IMG/VR virus record: IMGVR_UViG_3300032053_000316
Coordinates: 1-31,842 of that record
Length of the DNA: 31,842 bases
Strand: one strand, 5' to 3'
Source of the DNA: a virus
In this document: one piece after another, positions 1-31,842 of the stretch
How positions within the stretch are numbered: position 1 is the stretch's first letter
How the letters are laid out: every line of letters starts with the position of its first letter
The notes under the pieces: model-generated
Told to the model about the DNA's origin: nothing
What the model saw: the letters and a program-made list of their open reading frames with translations, nothing else
Database searches by the model: none
Position numbers and translations under genes: made by a program

Positions 1-2652
1 CTACTAGACAAGCAGACTCAAGCTCGTAAGTATGGTGTCAACTACCTGAACGCCTATGAGAAGATAATGAACGGCGTGAGGGATGCTGAGACCGAAGCCT
101 TCCAGCGATTCTACCAGAACACTACCAAGATGTCCTTCACGATGGAAGGCGCTATGGCTATGTTCAACAACCGATGGAAGGAGTTTGAGGCCTCTGACGC
201 AGCACGTGCAGCCAGAATGCAACAGCGTTGGAATACAGCTATAATCAAGATAGGTCAAGCCTCCGCTGGTGTACTGATCCCCATCATGGAGCAGGTCAGT
301 GGCTACATGGAGCAACTGGGCGGTTTCGTCAGAGATAACCCAGAGCTCATGCAGTACATAACATCAGCCGCAGGGATCATGATGGGCTTCGGCGCTGTTA
401 TGCAAGTGGTAGGTGGTGTTGCTGGTATAGTAGCCAACGTCGCTATGGCTGGTAGGGTAATTAAGGGAATGGGTGCGCTTGGAGCAGCTACGGGCGCGGC
501 AAGATTAGCTGCGGTAGCTAACACGAGCACGATGGCAGGTACTGCTGCATTGGCCCAGGGTGCTGTGCTAGAGGGTGGGGCTGGAAGCTTTGCTGTGTGG
601 TTGGCTACACAGGGGGGATGGGGTGCTGTTGCAACTGCGGCGATTGGTGTTATCATTCCACTTGCAGTAACTGCTGCAGCAGTTTACTTCAGTAAGCAAA
701 TTGACAAGTCTGCTGTAGCAACGAACACCGCGACTATAAAGTCTATAACTAATCTTAATGTAGAAGCCCTTAAAGACTTTCAAGCTCGTAAGACTCCTGG
801 TGGCTTCACAGAGTATGTTCCCACAACTGAACTTGGTGGGCAGCAGTATGAACAGATACGTGGATACTCATACAAAGGTATATCTCCTAGAGAGCCACTT
901 CAGCCCGTTGAGATGCAGACTATTCTGTCACGTATCCTAACATACGAGCAGGAGATGGCGCGGTTACGTGCTATGCCTGCTGCACCGAGAGTCACTGGTG
1001 GTACAGAGGCTGACTGGGCTGCGGAGATGAAACGGCAGCAGGCTGTACAGGCAGCTAACGACCAGGCCATTGCTGAAGCCGGTGGTTCGATGGAAGCCGT
1101 GAGAGAGCGTGTTAAGCAGGCTCTTAGAACAGGCACCCTGGAGGGTGTCGCAAGCCCTGCCGGAGTCATCAACAAAGCCGTGGATGACTACCTCACGCGA
1201 CGCGTCCAGGAGATCCTTACTGTAGCAGCAGGCCTTGCTGCACCTATGAGAATTACACCAAGTGTAGCTGGTGTACGTGCCTATGAATCAACACGCGGAT
1301 TCACACCAGCACAGGAAGCCAAAGTAGAAGCTTGGGAGACACGCAAGACCGCCATCGCTGCAGCCCAGGAGAAGTTGCAGAAAGCTGTACATGAAGATAA
1401 CGTAACCTTCGCTCGTCAGGAAGCTGAGTATGAAAGGGATTACCAGCGTCGTACAACACAGGCTGAAGTAGACTTTGGTGAGCAACAAGCACAGGCCCGT
1501 ACCGAGTACAATCGTAACTTTGCAAAGGAAGAGAAGCAGTTTGGTCTGCAGGAAGCCGATTACTTAGAGGACAAGAACAAGCGGCTGCTAGACCTGGACG
1601 AGCAGTATGCAGATCAAGCAGCTAAGGCTGCAAAAGAACGCCATCGCCAGTTGGAACAGTTGGAGCGACAGCACAAGTTGACGATGATAGGGCTGCTAGA
1701 AAAGGCAGACGTACCTGGTCTCATCGCTGAGATGCGTCAGTACCGCGAGCGCCGCAAGGAGAATAGGATACAGGATCGTGAGGCCACAGCTGACAGGGCT
1801 GAAGCCTACACGAAGTCTAAGGCGGACATCGAGAAGGACTTCAACGACGCGAAGGCGCGTAGGAAGCGGGACTTCGATCTCCGCAAGACTGAGGCGGATG
1901 AGGAGTTTGCCTATCAAGAAGGCCAGCGCTCTGCCCAGTTTGCCAAGTCTCAGACGCGAGCACAGACAGAGTATGATCTCGCTAAGGCTGACAGGAAAGA
2001 CAAGCACGACGAGCGCCAAGCTGAGATGGTAGCCGACGCAGAGGATGAGACGAAAGCCGCCGAAAAAGTCTACGCGGACTTTTACGATGCTTGGCTTCTT
2101 CAACAAGAGGGGCAGGATAAAGCACGTGCAGAAGCGTTTGCAAAGCGCCATAAGTTGATGGAAGATGACCTGATTGCCACTGCCGAGTGGGTGCAAGGAA
2201 AGTTAGCTCTGGAAAAACTCCTGGGTGAGGAGAAGTATGTACCCACACAGGCTGAGCTTGCCAATATGTCACCAGAGGCTAGACGCAGGTTCCTAATAGC
2301 TGCTGGACTACCACCAGACTTCTATGTAGAACCACAGGGGGCCACTCCGTTCGTTGGGCCTTATGGATTACAAGAGGGTGGCTACGTACCGAATGGTATC
2401 TACCGTGCAGGGGAGGCGGGCACTGAGTTCATGCTCAATGCAGATACCACACGACGACTGGAGCGCAGACTTGGGCCGTTATCCCAGGATAGCTTCGTGA
2501 AGATGCCCAGTGGAATCACTGTTATTGTGCAGCAGCATGGATGGACAGCGATGGGGAGGATTACCCCTCTGGAGATGAAAGACCTGCAGGAGATGGCCGC
2601 TGTGCAGGCCCAGCGCGTCCTCGAAGATACTATGGATAAGACGATGAGGTAG
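1..2652 (+). CDS. Tail tape-measure protein (5' end outside window)
   Basis: The frame is open to the first base of the window, so the gene starts upstream and 883 residues are visible. Tape-measure proteins set tail length and line the tail tube. The visible part has two glycine/alanine-rich hydrophobic stretches (about nt 370-460 and 625-690), typical of the membrane-active segments of these proteins. Next comes a long charged, heptad-like coiled-coil region rich in Glu, Arg, Lys and Gln (about nt 1310-2130). The C-terminal GEAGTEF motif followed by a Leu/Arg-rich helix (about nt 2410-2480) is common at the end of tape-measure proteins. The stop is one base before the next start (TAGCATG). 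Assignment rests on composition, the terminal motif and position before the tail-tip genes. Confidence 0.85.
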   Translation, partial: LLDKQTQARKYGVNYLNAYEKIMNGVRDAETEAFQRFYQNTTKMSFTMEGAMAMFNNRWKEFEASDAARAARMQQRWNTAIIKIGQASAGVLIPIMEQVSGYMEQLGGFVRDNPELMQYITSAAGIMMGFGAVMQVVGGVAGIVANVAMAGRVIKGMGALGAATGAARLAAVANTSTMAGTAALAQGAVLEGGAGSFAVWLATQGGWGAVATAAIGVIIPLAVTAAAVYFSKQIDKSAVATNTATIKSITNLNVEALKDFQARKTPGGFTEYVPTTELGGQQYEQIRGYSYKGISPREPLQPVEMQTILSRILTYEQEMARLRAMPAAPRVTGGTEADWAAEMKRQQAVQAANDQAIAEAGGSMEAVRERVKQALRTGTLEGVASPAGVINKAVDDYLTRRVQEILTVAAGLAAPMRITPSVAGVRAYESTRGFTPAQEAKVEAWETRKTAIAAAQEKLQKAVHEDNVTFARQEAEYERDYQRRTTQAEVDFGEQQAQARTEYNRNFAKEEKQFGLQEADYLEDKNKRLLDLDEQYADQAAKAAKERHRQLEQLERQHKLTMIGLLEKADVPGLIAEMRQYRERRKENRIQDREATADRAEAYTKSKADIEKDFNDAKARRKRDFDLRKTEADEEFAYQEGQRSAQFAKSQTRAQTEYDLAKADRKDKHDERQAEMVADAEDETKAAEKVYADFYDAWLLQQEGQDKARAEAFAKRHKLMEDDLIATAEWVQGKLALEKLLGEEKYVPTQAELANMSPEARRRFLIAAGLPPDFYVEPQGATPFVGPYGLQEGGYVPNGIYRAGEAGTEFMLNADTTRRLERRLGPLSQDSFVKMPSGITVIVQQHGWTAMGRITPLEMKDLQEMAAVQAQRVLEDTMDKTMR

Positions 2653-2653
2653 C

Positions 2654-3046
2654 ATGGCAGACTATTCATATGAGATCGGCGCTACACAGGTTGCACTGGC
2701 TAATGTGGAAGATTTGGTTACTGATATGCAAGCACCATTCAGTCACTACATTGAACCATATAGTAAATATCAAACCGCTGTTGATGGCTTGGAGTATGGC
2801 GATGGCTTTCCTAGATGTGTATGGCGTTTTGATTACCTTAGTGGCGCGATGTATGCAGCCCTGATTGGCTACATCACGGGGCAATCAACCAGTCTATTTA
2901 TTAGAACACGAGATGCTGCTGGAGTATATGCGCCGTACTCGGCAGTGATGCACAGGCCCAAACCGAACGAAGCTACTTGGGAGATGGGTGGCTGGCGTAA
3001 TGTCACCTTCAACTTTACTATGATGGTCAAACTCAACGAGTTATAA
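2654..3046 (+). CDS. Small tail protein following the tape measure
   Basis: A 130-residue protein starting one base after the tape-measure stop, so probably translationally coupled. It is rich in aromatic residues and beta-prone sequence, with no signal peptide, membrane segment or catalytic motif. Genes directly after the tape measure usually encode distal-tail or minor tail proteins, and this one has a plausible size and composition for a tail-tip adaptor. No specific family was recognised; the role is inferred from position. Confidence 0.6.
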   Translation: MADYSYEIGATQVALANVEDLVTDMQAPFSHYIEPYSKYQTAVDGLEYGDGFPRCVWRFDYLSGAMYAALIGYITGQSTSLFIRTRDAAGVYAPYSAVMHRPKPNEATWEMGGWRNVTFNFTMMVKLNEL

Positions 3047-3059
3047 CAGGAGGATCGAG

Positions 3060-10670: not shown

Positions 10671-11045
10671 TTAGCTTTTTTCAGGCATTTCCGACGGTTT
10701 TATCACGGGCGCGTGGATTTCGTCGGATTTCGGCAATCCCTCCACGACGAGACCATCTAGAATCAACTCACCAAGCGTTTGGATGTCTGGACAAGACCAT
10801 GTAGAGCCGTTTGGTGCATAGACTGATAGGTGCATCATCTCGTGGCGCACCGATACCTTAAACCGAAAGCCCTGGGCGAGGATGATGTAGTTGCGATCCC
10901 CGACCTCCCTAACACCTCCCTCTTGTAATGCTAGACTGTCTGGCAAGACGCCGAAGGTATCGTAAAAGTAGGTTGACACCACAGCACGTTGCTGACTCAT
11001 CCTCAACTCTGCTGCTCTCAATGCGTTTTCCTTAAGTGTGTACAT
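10671..11045 (-). CDS. Hypothetical protein, 124 aa
   Basis: Starts behind GGAGG with a six-base spacer and overlaps the 3' end of the SNF2 gene by 14 bases. The N-terminus is helical, the middle beta-rich (RNYIILAQGFRFKVSVRHEMMHLSVYAPNG), and the C-terminus is Pro/Lys-rich and probably disordered. The HEMMH string recalls a metal-binding HExxH motif but lacks the correct spacing, so no enzymatic claim is made. The 81 bases after its stop hold a GC-rich stretch and the palindrome. Confidence 0.5.
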   Translation of the reverse strand: MYTLKENALRAAELRMSQQRAVVSTYFYDTFGVLPDSLALQEGGVREVGDRNYIILAQGFRFKVSVRHEMMHLSVYAPNGSTWSCPDIQTLGELILDGLVVEGLPKSDEIHAPVIKPSEMPEKS

Positions 11046-13710
11046 TGTTTCCCTCCAAATAGTTGTTGATGTTCCTTAGAGCCTCTCCACGCAGAATGTC
11101 GTTGCTCATAGCTATCTTCCTGCTGAGGATTCTCTCAACAAAGTCATCTATGGACTTTGGGTGGCGCAGAGTTATTATCTGACAGGTTCTGTCTTGGCCA
11201 ATGCGATGGCAGTTATGCACAGTTGCTAGACCGACTACGAAGGAATGATCTTCTGCAATCTCCAGATCATATACGTTTGTATACTTGTCGAGTTTAGAAC
11301 TAGTAGCAGTTACAGTATACAAAGCGTAACCATCCAAGCGCTGTTTGGTATCCGTCTTATTGGCACTAGTATTAAAGCCTCCTATATAAATGTGATTGCT
11401 GTTATCATCCACCTCTCTGTAACCTGGCGTGTATCCACACTGGGCTGCTAATAGACACATATCATAGGCCAACGTTGCTGATACTGATGACCACTCACAG
11501 TTAGTGCCTTTTATATGCCCATCGCCGCTTATATATCCTTGCAGAAGGTGCGTTGACTGCTCCGGTGCTAGTTGGAGAAGCTCTGGAGACAACCTTTTAT
11601 GCTCCGCGCCCTTACCACACAAGTGCATCATGAGATCACGTAATTCTATAGAGTACGCATACATCTCTACGGCATTAGCGTTGGCCTTTTCGTACAGTTG
11701 TGTTGTGATACCTAAACTTGCACACCAGGCAGTAAATGGAGTTAGACAGTCAAGATTTTCATGGCTGCAGCAAAGACCAACGAAGTGGTCTCCTAGCCAT
11801 CCGTTTGCTAAATAGTAACCAATAGAGTACAGGGCATCGTTGGTGAGCATAATACTGTCTGGTAGCGTTACCAGACGACTGTTGACCTGCTCAATCCCAT
11901 TATTCATAAAGGTTCTTGGCCTGTGTATCACAGATGGAACTGCAATGGACTCGTGGGCCAACACAGCAATCTCCGGCAGCACAAGCATATCACCAGGAAT
12001 AATAGACCAGGCTGGTTTCCACACAAGGCTCTCGGCATCTTTTGTATATACTAAGATTTGGTGATCGTGTGTGCACACTAGGGGTTTTACAGTGCGATGG
12101 GTTTCGATGGATGTTAGAATGCCACGGCACTGGCGTTTATGTGCATTTACTACAGGTCTCCATCTCCCCATATGTGTCAAAACATTGTCACCGGCAAGTA
12201 TGGTCTCGATTGGCACTAGCCCGCGTTTCAATACACGTACAAGTTGACCCTCTGCAATACAGCGATCTTCTGCTTGCGTGTTGACCGATGGATTGTAGTC
12301 TTTCTCAACAAAGATCAATTTGCAAGCACGTGTAAGGGTGAGTCCCACTCCGCCAGTATCCACAGTGGCTATCAACACGCGGGCCTCTCCACTCTGCACA
12401 GCCCCCACGATTTCATCTACAGACTTGCGCTTGAAGCCACCCATGAGAGTTACGCAAGTCACTCCACGTTTAGTCAGTCTGTTGTATAGCGCCAGAACAG
12501 TTTCCCTAAACTGTGTAAACACCAGTACCGACTCGTTGGCCAATTCGTTTTCCAACAGTTCCTCAATGGCATCGAGCTTGCCGGACTCGTCTGAATCATC
12601 GAGCGTTGCCGTGGTGCTGGCTATCTGTCGTAGCCTTGTTAACTTAGCAATAACGTTGGGTGCTTTGAGGATGTCACCTTTCTCTAGCGCCACCTTTGCC
12701 AGTTTAGCCATCTCACGGTACATACGCGCCTGTGCATCCGTCATTTCCACAGGTAGCTCCTTGTAGGTTTTCTCAGGAAGCCACGGTAGGACTTCGGCCT
12801 TCGTTCTCAGCAAAGTGATCGGGGCTAGTTCCTGTGTGAGAATCTCCTTGTTCCTTACTCCAATCACCTCCTTGAAGCCTGTATAATAATTGACCGAGTA
12901 GTCTACAAACATCTCATAGAAGCGGTAGTAGGACGTGTACGTCTGTGGATACAACAGGTTAAGTAGTGCCCATAGTTCCCCAGGATGATTAGCTACTGGG
13001 GTTCCTGTCATCAACATCATTCCGCCAGCGTTAATCTGGGTCGTGGCTGCGAATACTTGTGTTTGAGGATTTTTGATTTTCGTGGCCTCATCACCTATAA
13101 ACCAGTCCCACGCATAATCATCAAGGCCCTCAACCAAGCGCAGTATCTCCCAGTTGAGTATCACATATCCACCAGCCCTATATGCTCCAGGCAACTTACC
13201 CCTCTCCTTAGAGGAAATCACCTGGGCCTGTGCACCCGGATGCCAGACCCTGATCTGTGAGTCCCACCACCCAGTAAGTGACTTGGGACACACGACGAGA
13301 ACATGGCTGCACAGGCCCGATTCCTTAACTGTATATATAGCTTGGATAGTTTTACCAGTCCCAGGTTCGTCAGCCACCAGCACTCGCTTGGTGTGCAGAA
13401 TGAATCGCACCCCTGCCTGTTGATACGGCCATAGTTGATCACCATGTCCATTAAGGTCACTGGTGTCTTTTAGAGACACTCGTGATTGGTATTCCTTCAG
13501 GTAGGACTTATACCAAGTATCAAGCGCTGGAACCATCTCCTTATCGTACTCTAAGAACAGGCGTAGCATGGAAGGCTCAAGCTGAGCGCTTACTCCGTTT
13601 CCCTCCGGTCTTACGCCTGGCACACCCAACAAGTATTTTAACTTGGAAAGGGTCTGATTCTGGCTGAAAATCCGATATTTGCCCCTCCCACTCTTTATTA
13701 ACTTTATCAC
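11032..13710 (-). CDS. SNF2-family DNA helicase/translocase interrupted by an intein
   Basis: 892 residues: a 542-residue SNF2 ATPase plus a 350-residue intein. The motor has Walker A DEPGTGKT (114-121), motif II DEAT (207-210), motif III TGTP (235-238), motif V with TGGVGLT, and motif VI split as QAEDR/CHRIGQ by the intein. It would act on branched or forked DNA; its gene lies next to a RuvC-like resolvase. The start is GTG with an AGGAG site four bases before it, placing the first 134 bases inside the resolvase gene. The N-terminal residues 10-50 look like genuine protein, which supports this start over an internal Met at residue 48. Confidence 0.9.
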   Translation of the reverse strand: MIKLIKSGRGKYRIFSQNQTLSKLKYLLGVPGVRPEGNGVSAQLEPSMLRLFLEYDKEMVPALDTWYKSYLKEYQSRVSLKDTSDLNGHGDQLWPYQQAGVRFILHTKRVLVADEPGTGKTIQAIYTVKESGLCSHVLVVCPKSLTGWWDSQIRVWHPGAQAQVISSKERGKLPGAYRAGGYVILNWEILRLVEGLDDYAWDWFIGDEATKIKNPQTQVFAATTQINAGGMMLMTGTPVANHPGELWALLNLLYPQTYTSYYRFYEMFVDYSVNYYTGFKEVIGVRNKEILTQELAPITLLRTKAEVLPWLPEKTYKELPVEMTDAQARMYREMAKLAKVALEKGDILKAPNVIAKLTRLRQIASTTATLDDSDESGKLDAIEELLENELANESVLVFTQFRETVLALYNRLTKRGVTCVTLMGGFKRKSVDEIVGAVQSGEARVLIATVDTGGVGLTLTRACKLIFVEKDYNPSVNTQAEDRCIAEGQLVRVLKRGLVPIETILAGDNVLTHMGRWRPVVNAHKRQCRGILTSIETHRTVKPLVCTHDHQILVYTKDAESLVWKPAWSIIPGDMLVLPEIAVLAHESIAVPSVIHRPRTFMNNGIEQVNSRLVTLPDSIMLTNDALYSIGYYLANGWLGDHFVGLCCSHENLDCLTPFTAWCASLGITTQLYEKANANAVEMYAYSIELRDLMMHLCGKGAEHKRLSPELLQLAPEQSTHLLQGYISGDGHIKGTNCEWSSVSATLAYDMCLLAAQCGYTPGYREVDDNSNHIYIGGFNTSANKTDTKQRLDGYALYTVTATSSKLDKYTNVYDLEIAEDHSFVVGLATVHNCHRIGQDRTCQIITLRHPKSIDDFVERILSRKIAMSNDILRGEALRNINNYLEGNNVHT
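11212..12261 (-). other. Full-length intein with LAGLIDADG homing endonuclease
   Basis: 350 residues, starting with Cys1 (CIAEGQLVRV), with a block-B-like CTHDHQI, and ending VYDLEIAEDHSFVVGLATVHN except that the last two residues, His-Asn, precede Cys+1 of the extein. All hallmarks of a class 1 splicing element are present. Between the splicing blocks are two LAGLIDADG-like motifs, YSIGYYLANGW and LLQGYISGDG, which indicate a double-motif homing endonuclease. The second motif keeps its acidic residue (GDG), whereas the first has AN where an acidic residue is usual, so nuclease activity is uncertain. Removal would join QAEDR to CHRIGQ and restore helicase motif VI. Confidence 0.93.
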
Positions 13711-15568: not shown

Positions 15569-15900
15569 CACTCCTCCATCTTATGTACTGTTATGGACCT
15601 GCTGATACCCCAGTGCACCTTGCAGGGGTCCTCTGGTTGTACTGATACTGCTGTCTGCCGCATTTGTATAGCCGCGATCTTTTTGGCCAGGTTGTGCTTA
15701 GCGCGGCCAATGGCTATTGCCCCACCAAGATCTTCACTCCATACGTCTCGCTTACCACATATAGCTAGTCCAGCAGCAACAATAATTCTGCTCTCATACT
15801 CCATCGTTACGGTGGCGATAGTATAGGGACGCCTGTAGATCGTCTCCTCTACCTGTGCTGCGTTGGCGATGTCCTCTTTGAACTGTCTACTGAGTTTCAT
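15568..15900 (-). CDS. Hypothetical protein, 110 aa
   Basis: Coupled at both ends: its ATG overlaps the upstream stop (ATGA) and its own TGA overlaps the reductase ATG. It looks like a small soluble alpha/beta protein, with a beta stretch (YTIATVTMEYESRIIVAAGL) and a basic helix (GRAKHNLAKKIAAIQ). Coupling to the reductase is only suggestive of a shared role. No family recognised. Confidence 0.6.
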   Translation of the reverse strand: MKLSRQFKEDIANAAQVEETIYRRPYTIATVTMEYESRIIVAAGLAICGKRDVWSEDLGGAIAIGRAKHNLAKKIAAIQMRQTAVSVQPEDPCKVHWGISRSITVHKMEE

Positions 15901-16966: not shown

Positions 16967-19318
16967 TCATTTACAGTATTTCCACTCCCTATAAGGAGAC
17001 ATGGATTTCTTATCATAGCTGTATCCTAGATCAAAGTCCACAGAAAATGGGATGTCGTCCCCCAATATAGCTCTAGGAACAGATACCATTATGTCACTTA
17101 CAGTACGAGCGAGTTGCGCTTCGTATCCTTGCTCTACTTCCATAAGTAGGGAGTCATGAGTAGGAAATAGTATACTGGCTTGCAAATCAGCTACAACGGC
17201 TTCAAGCCTTATCAGTGAAATTAACATCATATCGCTGGCTGCACTTTGTACTGGAAAGTTGATTGCCTGTCTCTCCAGATCACCCAGATTCTCTGGGAGC
17301 ATTAGAGGAAAATGACGACGCCTGCCTGTAACACTCTCCACATACCCTTGTTTGTGCATAAGAGCTTTTGTTTCAACAATCCACTCACGGATGCCTAGCC
17401 AGTCCAGGATAAAGTTAGTTATGTACTCAGCCTCATCTAGCGATATACCATTAGTGAGAGACAAGGAGGAGGGACTTCTGCCATAAATTAGACCGAAAAC
17501 TGCCCCCTTCACGACTGTTCTGTGTGTAGCACGTACATAGCTATTCTTGAACAGTAGCTTTCCTGCTTCATCATGTACATCTAAACCAGCCTCGTAGATC
17601 TCTTTGAGCTTTATAGACTTTGCAAGGCTTCCAACAGTTCGTACCTCTGCTTGTGAGTAGTCTGCTGCAAGCAGTATACGTCCTGGTGGCGCGATGATCA
17701 GTCCACGCAAGGGGCCTTCCCTGGTAAGGTTCATCAGGTTGGGCCGCGAACCACTGAGTCTACCAGTTACTGTTGTGTGGAGTTGCAGGCCTGGGTGAAG
17801 CCGGCCATCGCTTTCTGGCTTAAAATTAACCAGATACTGTCCCACCAGTTGTTGTGCAGAACGCGCCTCCAATAACAGTTTAACGAATGGAGCGCACTCG
17901 TATTGGGGCTGTACAAGCCGCTGTAGTTGATCCTTAGCCGTAGTATCAGCAGCTCTACCCTTAATGTTAGTAACAGTTGGGATACCATTCTCCAGAACGG
18001 GATCGCTGTTATTGTAGTCAGGCGCTTTGTAGCGCAGGTAGAGTATATCATGCACTTGCTTACTTGATCGTGGATTAAAGTTGGGATCGCCCAGCATAGA
18101 CCGCATCTCTGCAGCAGCGTGCTCTCGCGTTTCTAGAGCTTCCTGCATCAATCGCTGACGCAGCGACTCGTCAATCAAGCATCCTCCAACTGTCAATGAG
18201 ACGAGAGCGTTTGCTGCTGGAATGAGTAATCCACGGTACACAGACAACAACTTTGATCCCGCAGTGTCTAGTATAGGATACAAGTGCTCATATAAACGCA
18301 GGTTCATCACAGCGTCATTTGCGTTGTAGCGATACAGAATCGCTGGTGGTACAGCATCGTAAGTCTTGTACTTCTTAAGACTCGATTCCCAATCTGGAAC
18401 ATTCAGATACTTTTTAGCTAACTGTTTGAGCCCATGAGTACCTGTTCGCTCATCAAGTACGTAGTGCAGCAGCATTGTGTCATCGCTAATTCTAGGTGCA
18501 AAGCCCAAGATACCCTGCACACGTGATACGTCATACTGTGCATTATGTGCTAACCATAATACTGTCGGACGCTCAAAGGCATGTCTCAGTGCATCACGCA
18601 CCTTGGGATCACTCAGTATACTCTTTGGGATGACTTTGGCAGAGTCTATAGTATCAGCAAAGGCAATGGACAGGAGATCGTTATCAACAACCTTCAACGA
18701 GGAAGTCTCTATATCGAAGGCCACTCTACCCATCAGGCCATCAAGGTATACCACGGCTTCCTGTGCATCCAATACAATAAACTGATCATCACTAAGTAAC
18801 TTGCCCTCGACAGGTATAGGATGTAGCAGGGCCTTCTCTATGTCCTCTGCAAAGTCGGGGAACAGGTCTGCTGAATGGAGCAGTGCGGCTGGATTATACG
18901 TAGCGATTGCGTTCATAGACCCATACTGATACCATCTACCGTGCATCTCACGCATCGTACTCATCGCACAGCCAGTATACTGAGCGGCTATCTTGCCCAG
19001 GGCAATCACCGTCTTGATGCCACGCGCAGCGAGCTCCTCGTAGAGTTGATCTGCACAGGCCCGTAGGACTTCTCGGTCTGGGGTGCCTCTCTTGGGATCG
19101 CGGCATTTACTGATATTCGTGTAGTAAAAGCTGGAGGGCTTGACATTTAGTGCTTTTAGTACTTGGGCAAGCAGAGTACCGGAAGGTCCTGTAAAGGGCC
19201 TCCCAGTACGCACTTCGACATACCCAGGCGCTTCACCAACGAACGCCACGTCAGCCTGCACAGGCCCATAGCCGAGCACTTGTTTACATCCCTTGAGTGG
19301 ACATTCATTGCACTTCAT
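16967..19318 (-). CDS. Family-4 UDG-like domain fused to DNA polymerase I
   Basis: 783 residues, with ATG chosen behind GAGGG; an upstream Met would deepen the overlap with the previous gene. The N-terminal UDG-like domain (about 1-165) has four Fe-S cysteines (C3, C6, C72, C88) and GEAPG (28-32), but the expected His of the second motif is Asn (YNPAALL, Asn142). A DnaQ-like 3'-5' exonuclease follows with DIE (202-204), Asn259/Asp263 and Tyr331/Asp335. The family A palm and fingers carry TGRLSG, motif A Asp553 (DYSQAE), motif B R600/K604/F608/Y612, and motif C HDS with Asp722 where HDE is usual. No 5'-3' exonuclease is present. The architecture resembles the UDG-linked polymerases described for SPO1-type phages. 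It is the replicative polymerase. Confidence 0.93.
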   Translation of the reverse strand: MKCNECPLKGCKQVLGYGPVQADVAFVGEAPGYVEVRTGRPFTGPSGTLLAQVLKALNVKPSSFYYTNISKCRDPKRGTPDREVLRACADQLYEELAARGIKTVIALGKIAAQYTGCAMSTMREMHGRWYQYGSMNAIATYNPAALLHSADLFPDFAEDIEKALLHPIPVEGKLLSDDQFIVLDAQEAVVYLDGLMGRVAFDIETSSLKVVDNDLLSIAFADTIDSAKVIPKSILSDPKVRDALRHAFERPTVLWLAHNAQYDVSRVQGILGFAPRISDDTMLLHYVLDERTGTHGLKQLAKKYLNVPDWESSLKKYKTYDAVPPAILYRYNANDAVMNLRLYEHLYPILDTAGSKLLSVYRGLLIPAANALVSLTVGGCLIDESLRQRLMQEALETREHAAAEMRSMLGDPNFNPRSSKQVHDILYLRYKAPDYNNSDPVLENGIPTVTNIKGRAADTTAKDQLQRLVQPQYECAPFVKLLLEARSAQQLVGQYLVNFKPESDGRLHPGLQLHTTVTGRLSGSRPNLMNLTREGPLRGLIIAPPGRILLAADYSQAEVRTVGSLAKSIKLKEIYEAGLDVHDEAGKLLFKNSYVRATHRTVVKGAVFGLIYGRSPSSLSLTNGISLDEAEYITNFILDWLGIREWIVETKALMHKQGYVESVTGRRRHFPLMLPENLGDLERQAINFPVQSAASDMMLISLIRLEAVVADLQASILFPTHDSLLMEVEQGYEAQLARTVSDIMVSVPRAILGDDIPFSVDFDLGYSYDKKSMSPYREWKYCK

Positions 19319-19676
19319 GTTCATCCCTCGCAAGCACATATCCATAGGACACGATCAGCACCATGATCTCCTTGAACCTGTTTATGAACTTGTTGGTTTC
19401 TTCCTCTGTCTTTTCCATACCGTCCACTTTGGCAATCTTGGAGAACATATCAGCAATACCCAGGTATTCGGTGGCTACCATTGCCAGCGCCTTGATGTCT
19501 TCAAGGTGCTGGCCTTTCAGGAACGAACGTTCCTTGTCCAGAACATCTAAGCGTGCCTCCACGTGCGCCATCAACTCCACAGAGCGCTTACGAGCCATCT
19601 GACACAGGATCTTGGCCATGAAGCTCTTCATCTCATTGTCAACATCCAAAGTCATACCATTGTCATCCAAGTCCAT
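19305..19676 (-). CDS. Hypothetical acidic helical protein, 123 aa
   Basis: The start is fixed by AAAGGAG five bases before ATG. The protein is almost entirely helical with many Asp/Glu/Lys and Met residues (DVDNEMKSFMAKILCQMARKR), and no membrane segment. It lies between primase-helicase and polymerase and overlaps the latter by 14 bases, so a replication accessory or structural role is possible. No family recognised. Confidence 0.55.
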   Translation of the reverse strand: MDLDDNGMTLDVDNEMKSFMAKILCQMARKRSVELMAHVEARLDVLDKERSFLKGQHLEDIKALAMVATEYLGIADMFSKIAKVDGMEKTEEETNKFINRFKEIMVLIVSYGYVLARDEHEVQ

Positions 19677-19686: not shown

Positions 19687-22242
19687 TCAGTCATCATATA
19701 GTCCACCTAGCTCAACCGATACTGTCCTCGTAAACAACTTCTCTGGTACTTCAAGGCCGGAGGCGTGGGCCTGTGCAATGTCCACTCCCCACATGATATA
19801 CACGGATTCTCTGGGAACACGTATACTCTTAGGCAGGCAGATGTATTGCCCAGGTTCCCCTAGTCGAACAGTGCGCTCCTTAAGTTGTGCTTTGATTGCG
19901 GAGGCATCCAGTACCGATTCGCCCCTGTACCGCTTCTCCTTGTGCCACCAGGATATGGCACTGTGCAGACTGAACCACATGATGTTATCCTTGCTGGTGT
20001 AGTGGTAGATGAATGACTTGCTAGTCTTGCTGAGCGCAACCTCATTGAGCATATCTAGGATGAAGCCATCCACCGCTAACTCTCCTCGCCCAAGTCCAGT
20101 TTGATGCACAAGTTCCAACGTTTGCTGGAGAATCGTTGGCTGCACAGCCGCGCATGTAACGCCTTCGCTCTGAAGGTATAACTGATATAGCTTTATACCT
20201 GTCCATATTGTCGCCAGATTGCGCCGTATGCGGTCTGCTATGGGAAACGGAAACGTCGCCAGGATTTCTGCGTAGGCCGACAGCCACAGTTTTTCAAGGC
20301 GCGGGGCATTCCATCCCAATGTAAAGATTATGTAACGTGATGCAATCTGCTCCAGTGGTAACTCGACAAGTTCTGGAAATACATCATAGGCTTCTGTACC
20401 CTCTGCTATAGTACCTGGTGAGAGATTGATAAAGATCGTGCGCTCCTGAATTGCGGCATCTACTATTACATCCTCACCGTCGAGCACAATAGGCGCTGTC
20501 AGGGGATAGTCCCTGGTTGTCTGGTCTGGCCTACCGCGAGCATCGTGGCCTGTATCATACGTCAATAGTAGTGCTCGCTTGATATGGGCATAGTCCCTGT
20601 CTGTCAAGGTAGACTGTCGAAACTCGCTCATACTGATAGGTATGGCGTTCGTTGACGACAGCAGCGCCAGCAATACAAACGCTGTGGTCTTACAGTCGTG
20701 GCTACGCGGGTCGTCACAACTACTCAAGCGCAAGAATACTTTTAGCAGCGTACTGGTCTTTCCTGACCCGCGTGTACCATACAACTCAAGATGTGGAAAC
20801 CTTACTTGGAACTCACTAAACACCGGCTTAAGTGGTGCTGCAAAGAACCATCCTATCATGGGCCATATGCACTCAGGCTTATTGATCTGTGGTAGCCAGT
20901 TTGCAAGATTCTCAAGTTTGCTCTGTATAGCGGGATCATCCGTTTCACGATACAGTACCTTCGGGTGCTCACGCCCTGTCTCATGAAATACGATGGGAGC
21001 TTCATACAGCGCCAACACACCATCCTTGCTGATGGTACATTCAGTACTCACCCAGTGTTCCCCATGTCTACCCAAGCACCCGGTTGCCGTGGCCTGCGAG
21101 CTCCCGCTATCATGCCACTTTCGCACTACATATGGCAGCAGAAAGCGTACATCTCTGTCGTTGCCGAGCCATTGCCACTCGGCCACTGGTAGCTTACGGA
21201 GTAGTGCGTCCACCCGTGAAAACGCGCTCTTGGGTAGAACGATCCCTTCCCACACCTTGCCATCGGAATGTATGTCTCCTATGAAGGAGTCCTCCTCGGC
21301 GCTGTGCAGCAGACGTTTGGGATCGAATGTGAATGTAGATACCTCCACGGTAGAACCAGTCTTGGTCTGTGCATAGTAAGCATCCCCTAGCTCGACAAAG
21401 TATTCATCTTTCTTGGCCGCTGCCTGCAGGCGCTTCTCTGCCTGCTCCAGCGTGTGTCGCAGGTAGCGATCACCTGCACCTGCCTCACGGAACTTGGAAC
21501 CGATTTCGTGCTCTGCAAACAGGATGCGAATGAACGCATCTGACAAGCCCTCTCTTTTCAGGGCCGAGATGACACTCCAATCGGCCCCCGACCTGGACTT
21601 ATCTTTGGCCCCTGATGGAGCCGTTCCAGTGATGATCGAGCGCTTCAAAGTCTTTGGGAGCTTTACAGCGCGTTGAATATCATCAATGTTGTATACTAGA
21701 TCTGAACGATCCTCAGCTAGCGTACACGGAAGTACACCGTCTGGTTTCTTTCGATTGTATGTTCCTGGTACACGCAGTACACGTGCTGAATCACCAACAG
21801 CATCTCCCCCTGTTTCCTCTTTCATTGAACCCAGTAGCTCTTCGACCTGTGCAGCCGGAACCGAGTTTTCCAACATCCAGTAACCATGCCAGCCGTGGCC
21901 TGAATCCACCACAAAAGAGGGTGGTATGAGGCATCTTGTAATAGCCAGCCCCGCAGCCACCTTATCACCGTTGTAGTCGTCTTGATCTGTCTCTGCAAAC
22001 AGAGCCGTAAACCGCTTGGCACACTCTTTAGTCGGCCCCCGCTTTCCACGGATACCTACACCAAAGTAACAGCAATGTGTCTCTTGATATGGCTCTATCT
22101 TCTCGTAGACTTCCTGCACCGATTTGCAGTATAGAATCGTGACTTTATCTCTATCAGCGCTGTCAATTAGGGTTAGTTGGATGTACTCTGATTCCTGTAG
22201 CGTTGCGAAGAGTACTGTAAGGAGAGTCCTGTTCTCTGGCAT
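19687..22242 (-). CDS. AEP-type primase fused to helicase
   Basis: 851 residues behind GAGGAG. The first 175 residues fit an archaeo-eukaryotic-type primase: acidic ETDQDD (84-89), GHGWH (115-119) and DSARVLRVPGTYN (151-163). A PriCT-like helical segment is at about 222-275. The C-terminal part has Walker A GTRGSGKT (489-496), then an ATPase region with VVDxx/Arg-rich elements, so it probably unwinds DNA. It would prime and unwind at the fork for the adjacent polymerase. Coverage of the central region (280-480) by a known domain is uncertain. Sequence and neighbours make the overall assignment robust. Confidence 0.85.
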   Translation of the reverse strand: MPENRTLLTVLFATLQESEYIQLTLIDSADRDKVTILYCKSVQEVYEKIEPYQETHCCYFGVGIRGKRGPTKECAKRFTALFAETDQDDYNGDKVAAGLAITRCLIPPSFVVDSGHGWHGYWMLENSVPAAQVEELLGSMKEETGGDAVGDSARVLRVPGTYNRKKPDGVLPCTLAEDRSDLVYNIDDIQRAVKLPKTLKRSIITGTAPSGAKDKSRSGADWSVISALKREGLSDAFIRILFAEHEIGSKFREAGAGDRYLRHTLEQAEKRLQAAAKKDEYFVELGDAYYAQTKTGSTVEVSTFTFDPKRLLHSAEEDSFIGDIHSDGKVWEGIVLPKSAFSRVDALLRKLPVAEWQWLGNDRDVRFLLPYVVRKWHDSGSSQATATGCLGRHGEHWVSTECTISKDGVLALYEAPIVFHETGREHPKVLYRETDDPAIQSKLENLANWLPQINKPECIWPMIGWFFAAPLKPVFSEFQVRFPHLELYGTRGSGKTSTLLKVFLRLSSCDDPRSHDCKTTAFVLLALLSSTNAIPISMSEFRQSTLTDRDYAHIKRALLLTYDTGHDARGRPDQTTRDYPLTAPIVLDGEDVIVDAAIQERTIFINLSPGTIAEGTEAYDVFPELVELPLEQIASRYIIFTLGWNAPRLEKLWLSAYAEILATFPFPIADRIRRNLATIWTGIKLYQLYLQSEGVTCAAVQPTILQQTLELVHQTGLGRGELAVDGFILDMLNEVALSKTSKSFIYHYTSKDNIMWFSLHSAISWWHKEKRYRGESVLDASAIKAQLKERTVRLGEPGQYICLPKSIRVPRESVYIMWGVDIAQAHASGLEVPEKLFTRTVSVELGGLYDD

Positions 22243-22262: not shown

Positions 22263-22297
22263 TTGGGGGTGCGGCCTGTGCAGCACCGCACCCCCAA
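22263..22297. terminator. GC-rich 12-bp hairpin between SSB-like and primase genes
   Basis: TTGGGGGTGCGG (22263-22274) is complementary to 22286-22297, with an 11-base loop that contains most of a TGCACAGGCC repeat copy. No T-run follows on the leftward strand, so a partial terminator or RNase-processing stem that tunes expression inside the operon is likely. Confidence 0.5.
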
Positions 22298-22302: not shown

Positions 22303-22725
22303 TTAGAATGGGATTTCCTCTTCGTCTGCCTCACCAGCAGCTATACTGCCGGGGGGGAGAACACGATCCAACTTGCTGCGGGTCTTGCCCTGGTACTCAT
22401 CGGGAACCATGACGATCACACACTCCATCCCGATAACATCTGTGGGCTCGAAATCCACAGCACCCTCAAGATCGTCCTTCTCGTAGCCGAGAGCAATCAG
22501 CGTCTGCTTGAACTTCCACAGAGCCTGCTTCTGCAGACTCGTGGTCAAGAACGCCTTTCGCCCCTCAGCCTCGCCGTTGATGATGTTGAAGCGCCAGTTG
22601 AGGATCGGTTGATGTGCCTTAGAGCTCTTCAACTCACAGCCTTCAACAACTGCATCATAGTAACCAGGATCAAGTGCCTCAAACTCGGTCTTGATTCCAG
22701 TCAGATCGACACTAATAGGTGACAT
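22303..22725 (-). CDS. SSB-like protein (DUF669-type)
   Basis: 140 residues behind AAGGAG. The fold region has the pattern of phage DUF669-like single-stranded DNA-binding proteins (PGYYDAVVEGCELK ... WRFNIINGEAEGRKAFL). The end, DEEEIPF, mimics the DDDIPF tail that bacterial SSB uses to recruit partners. Its ATG follows the Sak4 stop (TAAATG), so the two are coupled. Probably coats ssDNA for annealing and replication. Confidence 0.8.
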   Translation of the reverse strand: MSPISVDLTGIKTEFEALDPGYYDAVVEGCELKSSKAHQPILNWRFNIINGEAEGRKAFLTTSLQKQALWKFKQTLIALGYEKDDLEGAVDFEPTDVIGMECVIVMVPDEYQGKTRSKLDRVLPPGSIAAGEADEEEIPF

Positions 22726-23544
22726 TTAGCTCTCCTTAACTTCCTCTTCGATAGTGGTAGGCTCATCAGGTATCTCTAAGCCCTGAATGGCCCCCTTGTA
22801 GATGGTTGTCATTGTCGGTGCTTGGAGCACTAGGGGCAGGGCTCCTCTGCTCTTGCCGGACTTGTTGCCAAATACGGCCATCTGTAAGTAGCGAGCGATT
22901 GATTTCCCCTGTACTCGCGTATACATATACCCTACGATGTCAAACTCTGCTCCCACCTCCCTTGCCAGTTTTCGTGATAGTCCTGGTTGAATCACCCTTA
23001 GATTCGTTCCTTCCTCCTCTCGCTCGTCTACGAGCGCTGTTGCCAAGAAGTTGACTGGTGCTGTCTTGAACTTTTGCAGCAACAATCTCATCTTGAATGT
23101 CCCATTCATCCAGTCACGGAGCCCAGGCACGTCTGGATCTTCATTCGAGCTTCGATCAGAACTTGCCATACGCTCCCGAATCATCAGATTGTATGCAACT
23201 GTGAGTGAATCAATCACGACGGTCTTGTAGCGACCAGGATTAGCCCGTAGGTACAGGTTTACATCATCTATGTCCTTGCTCTTCCTGACGGAGACTACAT
23301 CAATATCGTTCCGCTTAGCAATGGACATCAACCCTAAATCCACATCACACATCAGCACAGGACACATCTCCTGTACATCTGCTGCTGTACCCATCAGCAC
23401 CGTCTTACCCACACCGCTATCACCATAGACCAGTAGACGCAGATACTGGATGTTGTAGTTTGCTTTAACAATCACCAAGTCCTTACCCTGCCGTGTGAGC
23501 TTTTTAGGCTCAGTAGCAACGGTCTCCTTCGGTTCGTCAGTCAT
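22726..23544 (-). CDS. Sak4-like RecA-type ATPase
   Basis: 272 residues. Walker A GDSGVGKT (41-48) and Walker B KTVVIDSL (107-113) are followed by a RecA-core pattern seen in phage AAA_24/Sak4 proteins. These are single-strand annealing recombinases that often act with an SSB. Here the SSB-like gene follows immediately. The N-terminal 25 residues are polar and likely disordered; the C-terminal acidic tail resembles a protein-interaction tail. Confidence 0.85.
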   Translation of the reverse strand: MTDEPKETVATEPKKLTRQGKDLVIVKANYNIQYLRLLVYGDSGVGKTVLMGTAADVQEMCPVLMCDVDLGLMSIAKRNDIDVVSVRKSKDIDDVNLYLRANPGRYKTVVIDSLTVAYNLMIRERMASSDRSSNEDPDVPGLRDWMNGTFKMRLLLQKFKTAPVNFLATALVDEREEEGTNLRVIQPGLSRKLAREVGAEFDIVGYMYTRVQGKSIARYLQMAVFGNKSGKSRGALPLVLQAPTMTTIYKGAIQGLEIPDEPTTIEEEVKES

Positions 23545-23740
23545 TTTCTATCAACTCCTTTCCAACCTCATGCTTCTGAACATCTCTTGCAACCTCCTCA
23601 GCTTGGAGGATGAGTCCCGTCAGCTTGGTGACTAGATCCGTGATGTCCTTTCCTGCACCAAGTCGCCCCGCATAGTAAAGCCGATAAGCCCGATTCTTTG
23701 CAGCCTCCAGCTCTGCAAGTAGTGCCTCTGTGCCTTTCAC
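23537..23740 (-). CDS. Hypothetical helical protein, 67 aa
   Basis: Coupled by ATGA to the nuclease stop and overlapping the Sak4 start by 8 bases. Entirely helical, with heptad-like spacing and a Gly-rich turn (AGRLGAGKD). It could be a small adaptor for its two recombination neighbours; this is inferred only from position. No family recognised. Confidence 0.5.
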   Translation of the reverse strand: MKGTEALLAELEAAKNRAYRLYYAGRLGAGKDITDLVTKLTGLILQAEEVARDVQKHEVGKELIEND

Positions 23741-24786
23741 TCTTTTTCCTCCAGTACGGGATAGTAGTGCTCCCGCTTCATGTAGTCCTGCTTAAGTACT
23801 GGCAGCGGACTGAATCCGTTGGCTACCATCTGACATGGTGTCTTAAAATCACACCAACCGCACTTGAACCAGTCGGGATTAGGATATATTGCCAATGCTG
23901 GATCAAGCATCTCGGCTACGGTTGCCATGAACCACGAACCAAAGACGTACATGGCCCTATCTGTGCGTTTGATCTCGGTACGCTTGTGAAACTTATTCTG
24001 TGTTTTCAACATAACAAGTATATCCCTATAGTCATCTGGATTCAAGTCATGTAACTTGATTGACTCCATATACAACTCGTAAGTCGTATTCATATCCTTA
24101 TTCTTGGACAGGGTACCATTCTTAAGAAGCACAGGCCGGTCAGGTACGGTTTTCATCACGAAGTTGTAGTAAGTGCCTATAGGCCTGCGATCTACAAAGC
24201 GATCATCGTTCTGAGCCGCCCACTGATATGCCACACACTGCCAATCAAGAAACAGCATAGTGGTGTCTGGCATCTTAGCTGCTGTCTTGTGCTCCATGAG
24301 GAAGTACTTACCATCCAACTTTATGAGCGCGTCAGCCTTTCCCGTAAAGTAAACATGCCTGCCTGGGAAGATGGGCATAGGGATATTGAAGATGATCTCA
24401 ACATCCTCAGGCTTGTCAATGGTAAACTTGTCTTCTTTAAGTGCCCAGTTGTGATACCCTTTTAGAACATCATCCATAAGTGCTACTTCAGTGGAAACAT
24501 CGGCCAGGTGATCTGCAGAGAAGTCCTTCAAGGGCAGCGCCGCCCACGACTTCTGAATCCACGCCTGATATGCACTCATCAACACATCGTCGCTGCGCTC
24601 AGCCTTTGGTGTTTTGTAGTAAACCTCAAGTGCTGCGTGCGCACCAGAGCCAACAAACAGGTTCTTGTTGGTTGCTTTCGTACTCCAATTCCCACGTAAG
24701 CCAGACGAGAAGGCCCATTTCTGGCGACATGTCAAGTAGTTCTTTATATCCGAGATTGATATGTATAGATCAGGAATCCCACTCAT
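23737..24786 (-). CDS. Cas4/RecB-like PD-(D/E)XK nuclease with Fe-S cluster
   Basis: 349 residues. The ATG at 24786 lies behind AAAGGGG; an earlier Met would fall between the promoter -10 and -35. Catalytic residues are His50, Asp152 (FTGKADALI) and Glu165/Lys167 (MEHK), followed by a QxxxY helix (Q183, Y187). Cys20 plus C309, C312 and C318 fit a Cas4/AddB-type 4Fe-4S cluster. No helicase domain is present, so it is a stand-alone exonuclease that would make ssDNA ends for the Sak4-like annealing pathway. It is the first gene after the promoter. Confidence 0.88.
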   Translation of the reverse strand: MSGIPDLYISISDIKNYLTCRQKWAFSSGLRGNWSTKATNKNLFVGSGAHAALEVYYKTPKAERSDDVLMSAYQAWIQKSWAALPLKDFSADHLADVSTEVALMDDVLKGYHNWALKEDKFTIDKPEDVEIIFNIPMPIFPGRHVYFTGKADALIKLDGKYFLMEHKTAAKMPDTTMLFLDWQCVAYQWAAQNDDRFVDRRPIGTYYNFVMKTVPDRPVLLKNGTLSKNKDMNTTYELYMESIKLHDLNPDDYRDILVMLKTQNKFHKRTEIKRTDRAMYVFGSWFMATVAEMLDPALAIYPNPDWFKCGWCDFKTPCQMVANGFSPLPVLKQDYMKREHYYPVLEEKE

Positions 24787-24817
24787 GTTACCCCTTTCAT
24801 GCCCGACCGTGTGTACC

Positions 24818-24846
24818 ACTATAGCACAAAAAACAATAAGTGTCAA
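24818..24846 (-). promoter_or_regulatory. Sigma70-like promoter for the replication operon
   Basis: On the leftward strand: TTGACA (24841-24846), a 17-base spacer, and extended -10 TGC-TATAGT (24818-24823). The next ATG, at 24786, begins the nuclease gene after a roughly 25-base leader. The spacer end and -10 match the promoter at 30522-30550 over 16 bases. Confidence 0.8.
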
Positions 24847-24852
24847 GTGTTT

Positions 24853-25104: not shown

Positions 25105-25318
25105 TGATTTCCTCCTTACTCCAAATCAGCCGATCACACTTCTTTTCACAGTTCTCGCACGGGGTGTATTCGAGATCCATAGTGATACCATCTTCCTCTA
25201 ACACCATAGTCTCTATGTTACGGATGACGCAGTGCTTCATTACAAGCGTCCAGTGTGTGGTCTCAGGATGGTATGCCACAGCAACAAAGTCATCAGATGG
25301 GATGGTGACTATCTTCAT
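25022..25318 (-). CDS. Hypothetical protein with CxxC...C motif, 98 aa
   Basis: Coupled by ATGA to the methyltransferase stop. The N-terminal half is beta-rich (VTIPSDDFVAVAYHPETTHWTLVMKH); CENCEKKC in the middle could bind a metal. The C-terminal 30 residues are Thr/Pro/Gly-rich and disordered and coincide with the overlap with the winged-helix gene. No family recognised. Confidence 0.55.
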   Translation of the reverse strand: MKIVTIPSDDFVAVAYHPETTHWTLVMKHCVIRNIETMVLEEDGITMDLEYTPCENCEKKCDRLIWSKEEISGAVSDLDTQAQTPGTPATEGTEEPNR

Positions 25319-26358: not shown

Positions 26359-26956
26359 TTTCCTTACTCCTTTCATCTAACCAGAGTTCATGCACAGGAA
26401 ATAGCGTCCTGTTATAGAATAACTGTAGCTGCTCGTCTCCCGACATAGCAATCATCACAGCATCACTGTATGATTTGCTGTCACGGTGTGTATACATGGT
26501 GTCAACAAGCTCACGCACACCCATACGATGATTAGCACACAAGTATACGGCGTTGCATGGTGCTGTCGATCCACCGCGATGTGCAGGAACAAACTGGAAG
26601 CGCTCGATGTAATCTTGCTTATCAATCCCACACACTTCACACCTGTCAGGTATAGGCTGTGCGGCACGCCTGTAAGCGGCTAAGCACCCATACCACAAGA
26701 ACATATCCTTCGATATGGACTTGTTGAAGTCCTGATCGGTGACGAGAATGTGTGCCGGTATAGTTTTCCATCCCAGGAGTTTGGCTGCTAGCAACCTGCG
26801 CTCACCAGAGACGAGCTCCAGTCCCTCAGTTACGACGATGGGCTGGAGCAGACCATTGACCTGCATAGAATGGGCCAACGAGCCAATGTCACCCTTGTCA
26901 ACTCGCTGGCGTTTGCTCACAACTATCTGTTCAACAGGAATGTCCTTAACTATCAT
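26336..26956 (-). CDS. ParB N-terminal domain with HNH-like zinc domain
   Basis: 206 residues. An N-terminal ParB-like nuclease/CTPase fold, containing VSGERRLLAAKLLGWKTIPA (GERR at 51-54), is followed from about residue 100 by an HNH-like zinc module: CEVCG (106-110), HRGG (H126), N135, YLCANH (C140, H143). The stop overlaps the next start region. Start: GAGGTAG behind ATG at 26956. ParB-like folds in phages act as nucleases or modification-associated DNA binders. Pairing with the split MT-A70 gene suggests one ancestral ParB-methyltransferase. Confidence 0.75.
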   Translation of the reverse strand: MIVKDIPVEQIVVSKRQRVDKGDIGSLAHSMQVNGLLQPIVVTEGLELVSGERRLLAAKLLGWKTIPAHILVTDQDFNKSISKDMFLWYGCLAAYRRAAQPIPDRCEVCGIDKQDYIERFQFVPAHRGGSTAPCNAVYLCANHRMGVRELVDTMYTHRDSKSYSDAVMIAMSGDEQLQLFYNRTLFPVHELWLDERSKESVATGNK

Positions 26957-30006: not shown

Positions 30007-30016
30007 AAGGAGAACG

Positions 30017-30397: not shown

Positions 30398-30432
30398 CTC
30401 CGATCCCCTTTCGTGTATTGCGAACTTTGATA

Positions 30433-30461: not shown

Positions 30462-30521
30462 GCCCCTGAATACATTGACGTGTTATGGTAAGTGTAGCCC
30501 GTACCCCGCCTTTACCTATCC

Positions 30522-30550
30522 ACTATAGCACAAAATATGGAAAATGTCAA
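30522..30550 (-). promoter_or_regulatory. Promoter P3, tandem upstream
   Basis: TTGACA (30545-30550), 17-base spacer, TATAGT (30522-30527). The 16 bases TTTTGTGCTATAGTGG are identical to the promoter at 24818-24846. The -35 overlaps the stop codon of the transglycosylase gene. Confidence 0.8.
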
Positions 30551-30909: not shown

Positions 30910-31106
30910 ATCACCTCCGATATAAAGAACTGTAGATCACGCATTTCATCCTCTGTCAGATGCTCATTGCGTGACACGCGAGCAAGCAAGTCCCTGGCCT
31001 CCTCCAGTGACAGTAGCTTGATACCCCACTTCCGCTCGCCAGCAGGGTCGTTCTGCACAGGCCGGTGGGGGGCGACCTTTCTCTCCAGAGGGGTACTCCA
31101 CTTCAT
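30906..31106 (-). CDS. Hypothetical protein, 66 aa
   Basis: ATG at 31106, two bases after the stop of the tiny membrane gene, with GGAG seven bases before it. The protein has a basic N-terminus and a helical C-terminus (LSLEEARDLLARVSRNEHLTEDEMRDLQFFISEVM). No family recognised; the setting suggests co-expression with the lysis genes. Confidence 0.5.
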   Translation of the reverse strand: MKWSTPLERKVAPHRPVQNDPAGERKWGIKLLSLEEARDLLARVSRNEHLTEDEMRDLQFFISEVM

Positions 31107-31107
31107 T

Positions 31108-31215
31108 TCATGGCTCCGTCCTGCCCTTAATGTATCCAAGAGCATATGAGATAACAGCGACAACGATTGTCCACGAAATCAACGCGATCAGTATCCACGC
31201 CAACGAGTCACTCAT
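31108..31215 (-). CDS. Tiny membrane protein, 35 aa (holin candidate)
   Basis: A 36-codon frame whose ATG is one base after the upstream stop and whose TGA is one base before the next ATG (TGAAATG at both ends). Residues 5-29 form one strongly hydrophobic helix (LAWILIALISWTIVVAVIS..), then the charged GRTEP. Tight coupling in an operon with a muralytic enzyme suggests a small holin or pinholin. The length is below usual holins, so this is tentative. Confidence 0.6.
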   Translation of the reverse strand: MSDSLAWILIALISWTIVVAVISYALGYIKGRTEP

Positions 31216-31216
31216 T

Positions 31217-31842
31217 TCAGTACCCATCCATCCTAGCCCCACATATGGGACAGCATCCGTGGCCCTCGGTATCAACATAGATGTACTCCTGTATCAAGCA
31301 GTACTGCTCGATAGCCAAGTCCTCCATGCGCTGGCGCTGTGCGTTGCGGTGATCTTTTGCCCACTCATCGTCAGGCAGGATGTTCATCACAAGTTGCTCG
31401 TCAGGTACAGATTCGGGTAGCTCCAACAGCTTCTCAGACTTGTACTTGGCGAACTCTCCCTCCACATCCCAAAAGTCCACGATGGGATAGGTCTGTAGTT
31501 GTCGGCCAGCGCCAAGCCCCACCGCACCGTCTCTGTACCAGTGTGAACCTTTGTCATCTGTTGACCAGAGATGCTGATTGGGGCCTGTGCAGGAGATCCT
31601 GCCGTCCTGCAGCATCAGGAAGCTATCCAGCTCAGCGCTGAATATCCAGGCCCCCGATCCGCCCTGGAACATCACGAACTCGCCCTCATGCAACTCACCG
31701 AATAGCTCGGCCACGGCGTCACTGTAGAGGATGTCATCGCGATCATATTCAGGCACCTTTGTACAACTGAAAGCATGTGCACTGAATCCCTGATCGAGAT
31801 TGCTCTCATCATCGTACACTTGAAAGGGTTTACCCTTACCGT
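31217..31842 (-). CDS. Unknown protein, 5' end outside window
   Basis: The frame continues through the right edge of the window (GKGKPFQVYDDESN before the first possible GTG start), so at least 208 residues are visible and the start lies beyond. It is acidic with aspartate and glutamate clusters, and ends with CCPICGARMDGY, a short zinc-ribbon-like CxxC. A Gly-rich, beta-prone middle region (FVMFQGGSGAWIFSAEL) suggests a small beta domain. No family recognised. Confidence 0.6.
   Translation of the reverse strand, partial: GKGKPFQVYDDESNLDQGFSAHAFSCTKVPEYDRDDILYSDAVAELFGELHEGEFVMFQGGSGAWIFSAELDSFLMLQDGRISCTGPNQHLWSTDDKGSHWYRDGAVGLGAGRQLQTYPIVDFWDVEGEFAKYKSEKLLELPESVPDEQLVMNILPDDEWAKDHRNAQRQRMEDLAIEQYCLIQEYIYVDTEGHGCCPICGARMDGY

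Follow-up and report, generated by a model that had tools for sequence, protein, structure and literature searches.

A dispersed DNA word with lineage-specific dialects in a family of tailed phages, a probable priming site of their own primase-helicase

Background

Primer start sites inside phage genomes are rarely known, and the sequence recognition of primases is usually held to be too short to mark a genome. Here we describe a 10-base DNA word, TGCACAGGCC, which is dispersed over both strands of the IMG/VR virus record IMGVR_UViG_3300032053_000316 (31,842 bases, analyzed over its whole length and referred to as the window), and which is probably read by a primase-helicase of the archaeo-eukaryotic primase (AEP) type encoded in the same stretch. 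The record is classed as linear, which often denotes a fragment, and the window represents part of a tailed phage genome.

The closest described systems are AEP enzymes that start primers at a defined template sequence. The pRN1 primase requires 5'-GTG in the template; its first nucleotide is ATP, placed opposite the base that immediately precedes this triplet on the 5' side (PMC8076596), and the template used for its nuclear magnetic resonance analysis was CTGTGCTCA (PMC11009956). The PrimPol of phage NrS-1 primes at GTG too (PMC8718748). The locus described here resembles that of pRN1 ORF904 in the template core T-GTG-C (as in CTGTGCTCA), in a primer that would be initiated with A and in the combination of AEP domain, helix bundle and helicase. 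It differs in that only GTG is needed by the pRN1 enzyme, that no dispersed enriched word has been reported on its plasmid and that sequence similarity between the two proteins is very low. With the NrS-1 PrimPol, which recognizes TTTGGTTA and GTG, it would have in common that an AEP primase-helicase encoded by the phage reads a defined word in the template; however, the 8-nt word has two copies in the NrS-1 genome (PMC7102993), whereas tens of copies are present here. Targeted searches of an open-access library turned up no description of dispersed words for primases in the genomes of phages.

Results

Nine exact copies of TGCACAGGCC are present in the window, five on the plus and four on the minus strand, and all orientations given in the initial annotation were correct. 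The two copies of AGCACAGGCC, which has one mismatch to TGCACAGGCC, are present as described there but begin at 1488 and 24128, one base earlier than the assigned 1489 and 24129. One copy lies in the loop of a perfect 12-bp inverted repeat between two genes, the intergenic hairpin that had been noted. In detail, the sites are:

1488..1497, plus strand, AGCACAGGCC, one-mismatch copy (opposite strand GGCCTGTGCT)
2949..2958, plus strand, TGCACAGGCC, exact copy (template strand GGCC-T-GTG-CA)
13225..13234, minus strand, TGCACAGGCC, exact copy
13308..13317, plus strand, TGCACAGGCC, exact copy
19052..19061, plus strand, TGCACAGGCC, exact copy
19257..19266, plus strand, TGCACAGGCC, exact copy
19768..19777, minus strand, TGCACAGGCC, exact copy
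22273..22282, minus strand, TGCACAGGCC, the sole intergenic exact copy, with its core inside a hairpin loop
22263..22297, no strand, hairpin with perfect 12-bp arms and an 11-nt loop (plus strand CCTGTGCAGCA), directly upstream of the primase gene
24128..24137, plus strand, AGCACAGGCC, one-mismatch copy
31054..31063, plus strand, TGCACAGGCC, exact copy
31582..31591, minus strand, TGCACAGGCC, exact copy

The over-representation of TGCACAGGCC, claimed in the initial annotation, is confirmed as real. Dinucleotide shuffles yield 0.13 expected copies and none of 100 shuffles reached nine, while Markov models of orders 2, 3, 4 and 5 predict 0.11, 0.15, 0.34 and 0.89 copies. In the Markov-corrected count that the initial annotation had asked for, TGCACAGGCC still has the lowest Poisson P of all 10-mers with models of orders 2, 3 and 5, and at order 4 it is second to GCACAGGCCC, which is the same word shifted by one base. 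Shared protein sequence or codon use had been discounted as the cause, and indeed shuffling of synonymous codons leaves 0.29–0.36 copies as compared to the 8–9 seen in coding sequence. Copies with at most one mismatch, which had appeared to be common, number 20 in the window (2.9 expected). Enrichment is graded about a shorter core, with 33 copies of TGCACAG (9.0 expected) and 37 of the degenerate opposite-strand form SSSTGTGC (S being G or C; 10.0 expected).

No isolated phage is close to the window by DNA and searches with single proteins returned no close relatives; relatives were obtained only by alignment-based searches, with an alignment of the polymerase and then of the primase, and many of them are represented by full or large records. 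Records beyond the polymerase-fetched set were mostly obtained through the primase itself, which calls for caution. In many of these relatives the top dispersed over-represented 8- or 10-mer is a variant of the window word and is found on both strands. In detail, CACAGGGG / GCACAGGGGG is the top word in G001, G002, G327 and G360, GCACAGGG in G005, G006, G008, G324, G329 and G353, CGCACAGG in G330, AGCACACCCC in G332, GCACACCC in G359, GCACAGCC in G335, the weaker GCACACGCCC in G341 and GATTCACAGG in the outgroup G012. The words of phages with related primases also take the forms AGCACAGGGC, GCACAGGGCG, GCACAGCCCC and CGCACAGGS. Codon use was excluded by codon shuffles in 11 phages, including that of the window. 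Viral contigs matched by pair patterns of the word mostly carried tandem repeats within protein-coding sequence, or were unrelated contigs with an isolated pair.

On the opposite strand, every dialect consists of a G/C-rich stretch followed by TGTG, usually with C next; the core that does not vary between dialects is GTG with a T before it. Among 8,192 patterns made of three S/W positions (W being A or T) and five bases, SSSTGTGC ranks first in the 42 primase-bearing records other than the window, with 544 copies observed and 252 expected (2.2-fold, P~1e-56), as compared to rank 871 and 1.36-fold in 44 polymerase relatives without such a primase. In the primase set one-base variants of the core reach 0.98–1.18-fold and WWWTGTGC 0.92-fold, i.e. 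they show no enrichment. CCTG, a motif of other PrimPols (see PMC8718748), was considered as an alternative core; it lies within some dialects but is absent from GGGGTGTGC, GGGCTGTGC and GGGCGTGTGC, and GTG therefore fits better. In the primase tree, words of the CACAGGG type occur on both sides of the root, and CACAGGCC (the window), CACACCC, CACAGCC and CACACGCC on separate branches, a distribution which is consistent with several independent dialect changes.

The sites are conserved. Between phages with 67–75% DNA identity, 33–100% of the sites are identical as compared to 4–9% for letter-permuted 8-mers; nevertheless many sites have been gained or lost between phages. The sites are spaced somewhat more evenly than expected at random (combined P=0.0025, 16 records). 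Both strands carry sites in every record, and the two are used about equally. The 200 sites in 12 records comprise 83 in sense orientation, 107 in antisense orientation and 10 in intergenic positions. We conclude with high confidence that this is a real, selected and lineage-specific dispersed DNA word of a phage family.

To relate the word to the gene content of these phages, the following genes of the window have to be considered:

11032..13710, minus strand, SNF2-type helicase with an intein
16967..19345, minus strand, fusion of uracil-DNA glycosylase, exonuclease and family A DNA polymerase (PolA)
19687..22242, minus strand, primase-helicase of 851 aa, the proposed reader of the word
22303..22725, minus strand, DUF669 protein, probable single-stranded DNA-binding protein of the replication module
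22726..23544, minus strand, Sak4-like ATPase for annealing of single-stranded DNA
23737..24846, minus strand, PD-(D/E)XK exonuclease

The only window genes that are nearly universal in word-bearing records are those of the polymerase (17 of 17), the SNF2 helicase (16 of 17) and the primase (16 of 17); PolA and the SNF2 helicase are also present in phages without the word. Among the loci fetched by the polymerase, a TGTG word is on top in 5 of 11 with the primase and in 1 of 45 without it (P=7e-4). The sole exception is L057 (from record G008); its sequence stops about 3.5 kb upstream of the polymerase, and a primase lying further away would therefore be cut off.

The AlphaFold2 model of the primase-helicase has a predicted local distance difference test (pLDDT) score of 87.7 for the whole protein and of 92.5 for residues 1–330. 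Foldseek matches it to the PrimPol of cyanophage S-2L, RSF1010 RepB' and the pRN1 primase, and weakly to the isolated pRN1 helix bundle (template modelling scores, TM, are given below). In its pairing of an AEP domain with a helix bundle the model resembles the pRN1 and RepB' primases. The domains assigned are:

21709..22185, minus strand, AEP catalytic domain, about residues 20–178 (S-2L PrimPol 6zp9, TM 0.80 by target length; RSF1010 RepB' 3h20 and 3h25)
21400..21687, minus strand, helix-bundle domain, about residues 186–281 (pRN1 helix bundle, the reader of GTG in the template, 6gt7, TM 0.51, and 9rtj, TM 0.52, by target length; E 0.14–0.32)
19738..20928, minus strand, C-terminal helicase/ATPase, about residues 439–835, with the Walker A motif GTRGSGKT, similar to SCCmec Cch and the C-terminal helicase of NrS-1

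In the primase alignment the catalytic DxD and SxH motifs are well kept, D84, D86 and S114 being nearly invariant and H119 invariant. These motifs in a modelled AEP fold place the protein in the AEP / PrimPol superfamily. As for a priming site of the pRN1 type, a primase with a predicted AEP domain and helix bundle is encoded alongside the word.

Discussion

The initial annotation had proposed a dispersed recognition site acting at the DNA level, and this part stands. Of the roles that were suggested for it, a binding site of the phage itself fits our data, while support was lacking for an uptake or Chi-like sequence, looked for in Chloroflexota, and for a methylation site; the data instead link the word to the primase that the phage encodes. 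We favour, with reasonable though not strong confidence, the reading that the AEP primase-helicase encoded by the phage primes preferentially at the word, which exists in lineage dialects. From the comparison with pRN1 we infer that the primase reads the word and starts primers there, presumably for lagging-strand or general strand initiation. On the template strand, 5'-GGGCC-T-GTG-CA-3', the helix-bundle domain would read GTG(C), the primer would begin with A opposite the T immediately 5' of GTG and would run on through the G/C-rich stretch (AGGCCC...), which might keep the first short primer on the template. A priming template GGCC-T-GTG-CA would combine the recognition triplet with a T to pair with the initial A and with a G/C run to template the first bases of the primer, and it accounts for both constant features of the dialects, TGTG and the G/C-rich stretch. 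The phage would have accumulated and retained many of these sites, on either strand, so as to allow regular strand starts along the genome, and the constancy of TGTG in relatives, with variation of the G/C stretch and sometimes of the base 3' of GTG, could reflect a shifting preference of the primase. Whether the phage genome co-evolves with the preference of its own primase, with dozens of words selected inside genes and the set rewritten several times within one primase family, we regard as an evenly balanced question.

If this is true, each such phage genome would display the preference of its primase, and metagenomes could reveal this specificity for many uncultured phages; many intragenic sites would change together with one enzyme, as dialects. 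The window primase would then make more primer on GGGCCTGTGCA than on GGGCCTCTGCA, and the primase of each dialect would favour its own word (GGGCCTGTGCA, CCCCTGTGC, GGGGTGTGC).

Several points weigh against priming. The GTG specificity is borrowed from distant enzymes, with 12–22% identity over the matched parts, and since pRN1 needs GTG alone, its biochemistry leaves the longer kept word unexplained. Isolated phages with more distant AEP primases (YuA, FP1, Pam3, CGphi46, UFV02), which had been tried as a positive control, show no GTG word, a finding that speaks against generality, and the primase-bearing G326, G366, G007 and G361 are without a clear word. Beyond the polymerase-fetched set, the association of primase and word is partly built in because most records were fetched via the primase. 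Neighbouring sites if anything alternate strand (131 of 311 pairs on the same strand, 155 expected, P=0.004). In addition, the sites have no replication-arm polarity, and simple lagging-strand priming from one origin, which predicts long runs in one orientation, is therefore a misfit; priming of both strands throughout would fit.

The copy in the hairpin upstream of the primase gene might have been taken for a special origin. In the relative L040 a strong hairpin (5352–5393) also lies directly upstream of the primase gene, with a different loop that does not contain the word, and the copy at 22273 is for this reason not claimed as an origin. The two hairpins themselves possibly represent a terminator or an origin.

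Alternatively, the word could be a binding or stop site of another protein of the same block (polymerase, SNF2 helicase, Sak4 or exonuclease), for example a phage-borne Chi-like signal. The genes of these proteins adjoin that of the primase and accompany it in many of the phages with the word, and Chi-like signals are likewise short, asymmetric and dispersed. However, the polymerase and the SNF2 helicase are shared with the wordless relatives, Sak4, exonuclease and DUF669 protein were undetected in several word-bearing records and the sites show no orientation polarity. To our knowledge no such sequence specificity has been described for these four proteins, whereas reading of GTG is known for AEP primases. 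We consider this explanation unlikely.

Rather less probable still, and disfavoured by us, is a host word (Chi, uptake sequence or restriction context) taken up by the phage. Chi and DNA-uptake sequences are short, dispersed and strongly over-represented, and they likewise show dialects and even dispersal, but they belong to cellular genomes. Chi sites are oriented with replication in the host chromosome, and uptake sequences number hundreds or more in the genome of a naturally competent host. The only cellular lead came from a primase search of cellular genomes, which gave four distant N-terminal matches, all in Chloroflexota; when 400 Chloroflexota genomes were searched with a profile, 15 gave primase matches, all of them partial (N-terminal domain or short). 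In none of 301 Chloroflexota genomes is the word dense; the highest count was 39 copies, in 8.9 Mb, a density about 60-fold below that of the window, and a host-wide word is thus without support in this phylum, although the true host may lie elsewhere. Moreover, phages with a similar polymerase and another primase lack this word, and many different hosts would need to share the TGTG core.

A further candidate is a localized nick site: the virion DNA of T5, phiKMV-like and tf phages carries such single-strand breaks, likewise at a dispersed, phage-specific consensus. In tf the nicks lie in the lineage-specific word TACT/RTGMC, whose main form TACTGTGAC contains TGTG and is cut T/GTG (PMC3517423). 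The nick sites of tf, T5 and phiKMV are confined to a single strand, while here the word is on both strands in every record and the two are used about equally, and no nickase candidate was noted, which makes this reading very improbable. As a separate observation, the break in the tf consensus TACT/GTGAC (PMC3517423), between T and GTG, falls exactly at the step where synthesis of an AEP primer on the opposite strand would begin; this may be a coincidence. A further comparison is offered by the stoperators of Cluster A mycobacteriophages, asymmetric sites of 13 bp that are likewise dispersed and whose dialects differ between lineages in step with a phage protein; stoperators follow the direction of transcription (PMC6550527), unlike the present sites with their mixture of sense, antisense and intergenic positions and no gene or strand preference.

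A DNA methyltransferase gene of the MT-A70 family (25315–26376) is present in the window, but its product or another modification enzyme is a most implausible reader of the word because relatives of the gene occur in fewer than 3 of 17 word-bearing phages, and modification would leave the accumulation of sites unexplained. Chance, codon use or local composition, to which the abundance of related short words in the window (CTGTGCA, TGCAG) might point, is already refuted and barely merits consideration, as neither shuffled codons nor Markov models of order 5 and below account for the word, the core is the top word in distant relatives and the sites are conserved.

Other genes and words

Besides the methyltransferase, the window encodes a tape measure protein and a ParB-like protein; scans for Rfam families and tRNAs gave no hit in it. 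The intein of the SNF2-type helicase covers about residues 484–835 and includes a LAGLIDADG-like segment. An aldo/keto reductase gene (14765–15571) is possibly an auxiliary metabolic gene.

Other dispersed words were seen in the course of the analysis. G012 (the record of L053), a phage of 70 kb whose primase is a distant version of the present one, contains two dense dispersed words, GATTCACAG (37 copies) and GATCACAG (51 copies). The isolated Vibrio phage 1.046.O (L311, 1–50000), which has an annotated primase, carries AGGAGCGA dispersed on both strands (15 copies, 1.2 expected), a word without a GTG core. Finally, the repeated words TTGACATAAT (G360, L214) and TTGTCAAATT (G363/L219, G004/L048) possibly represent promoter or operator sites.

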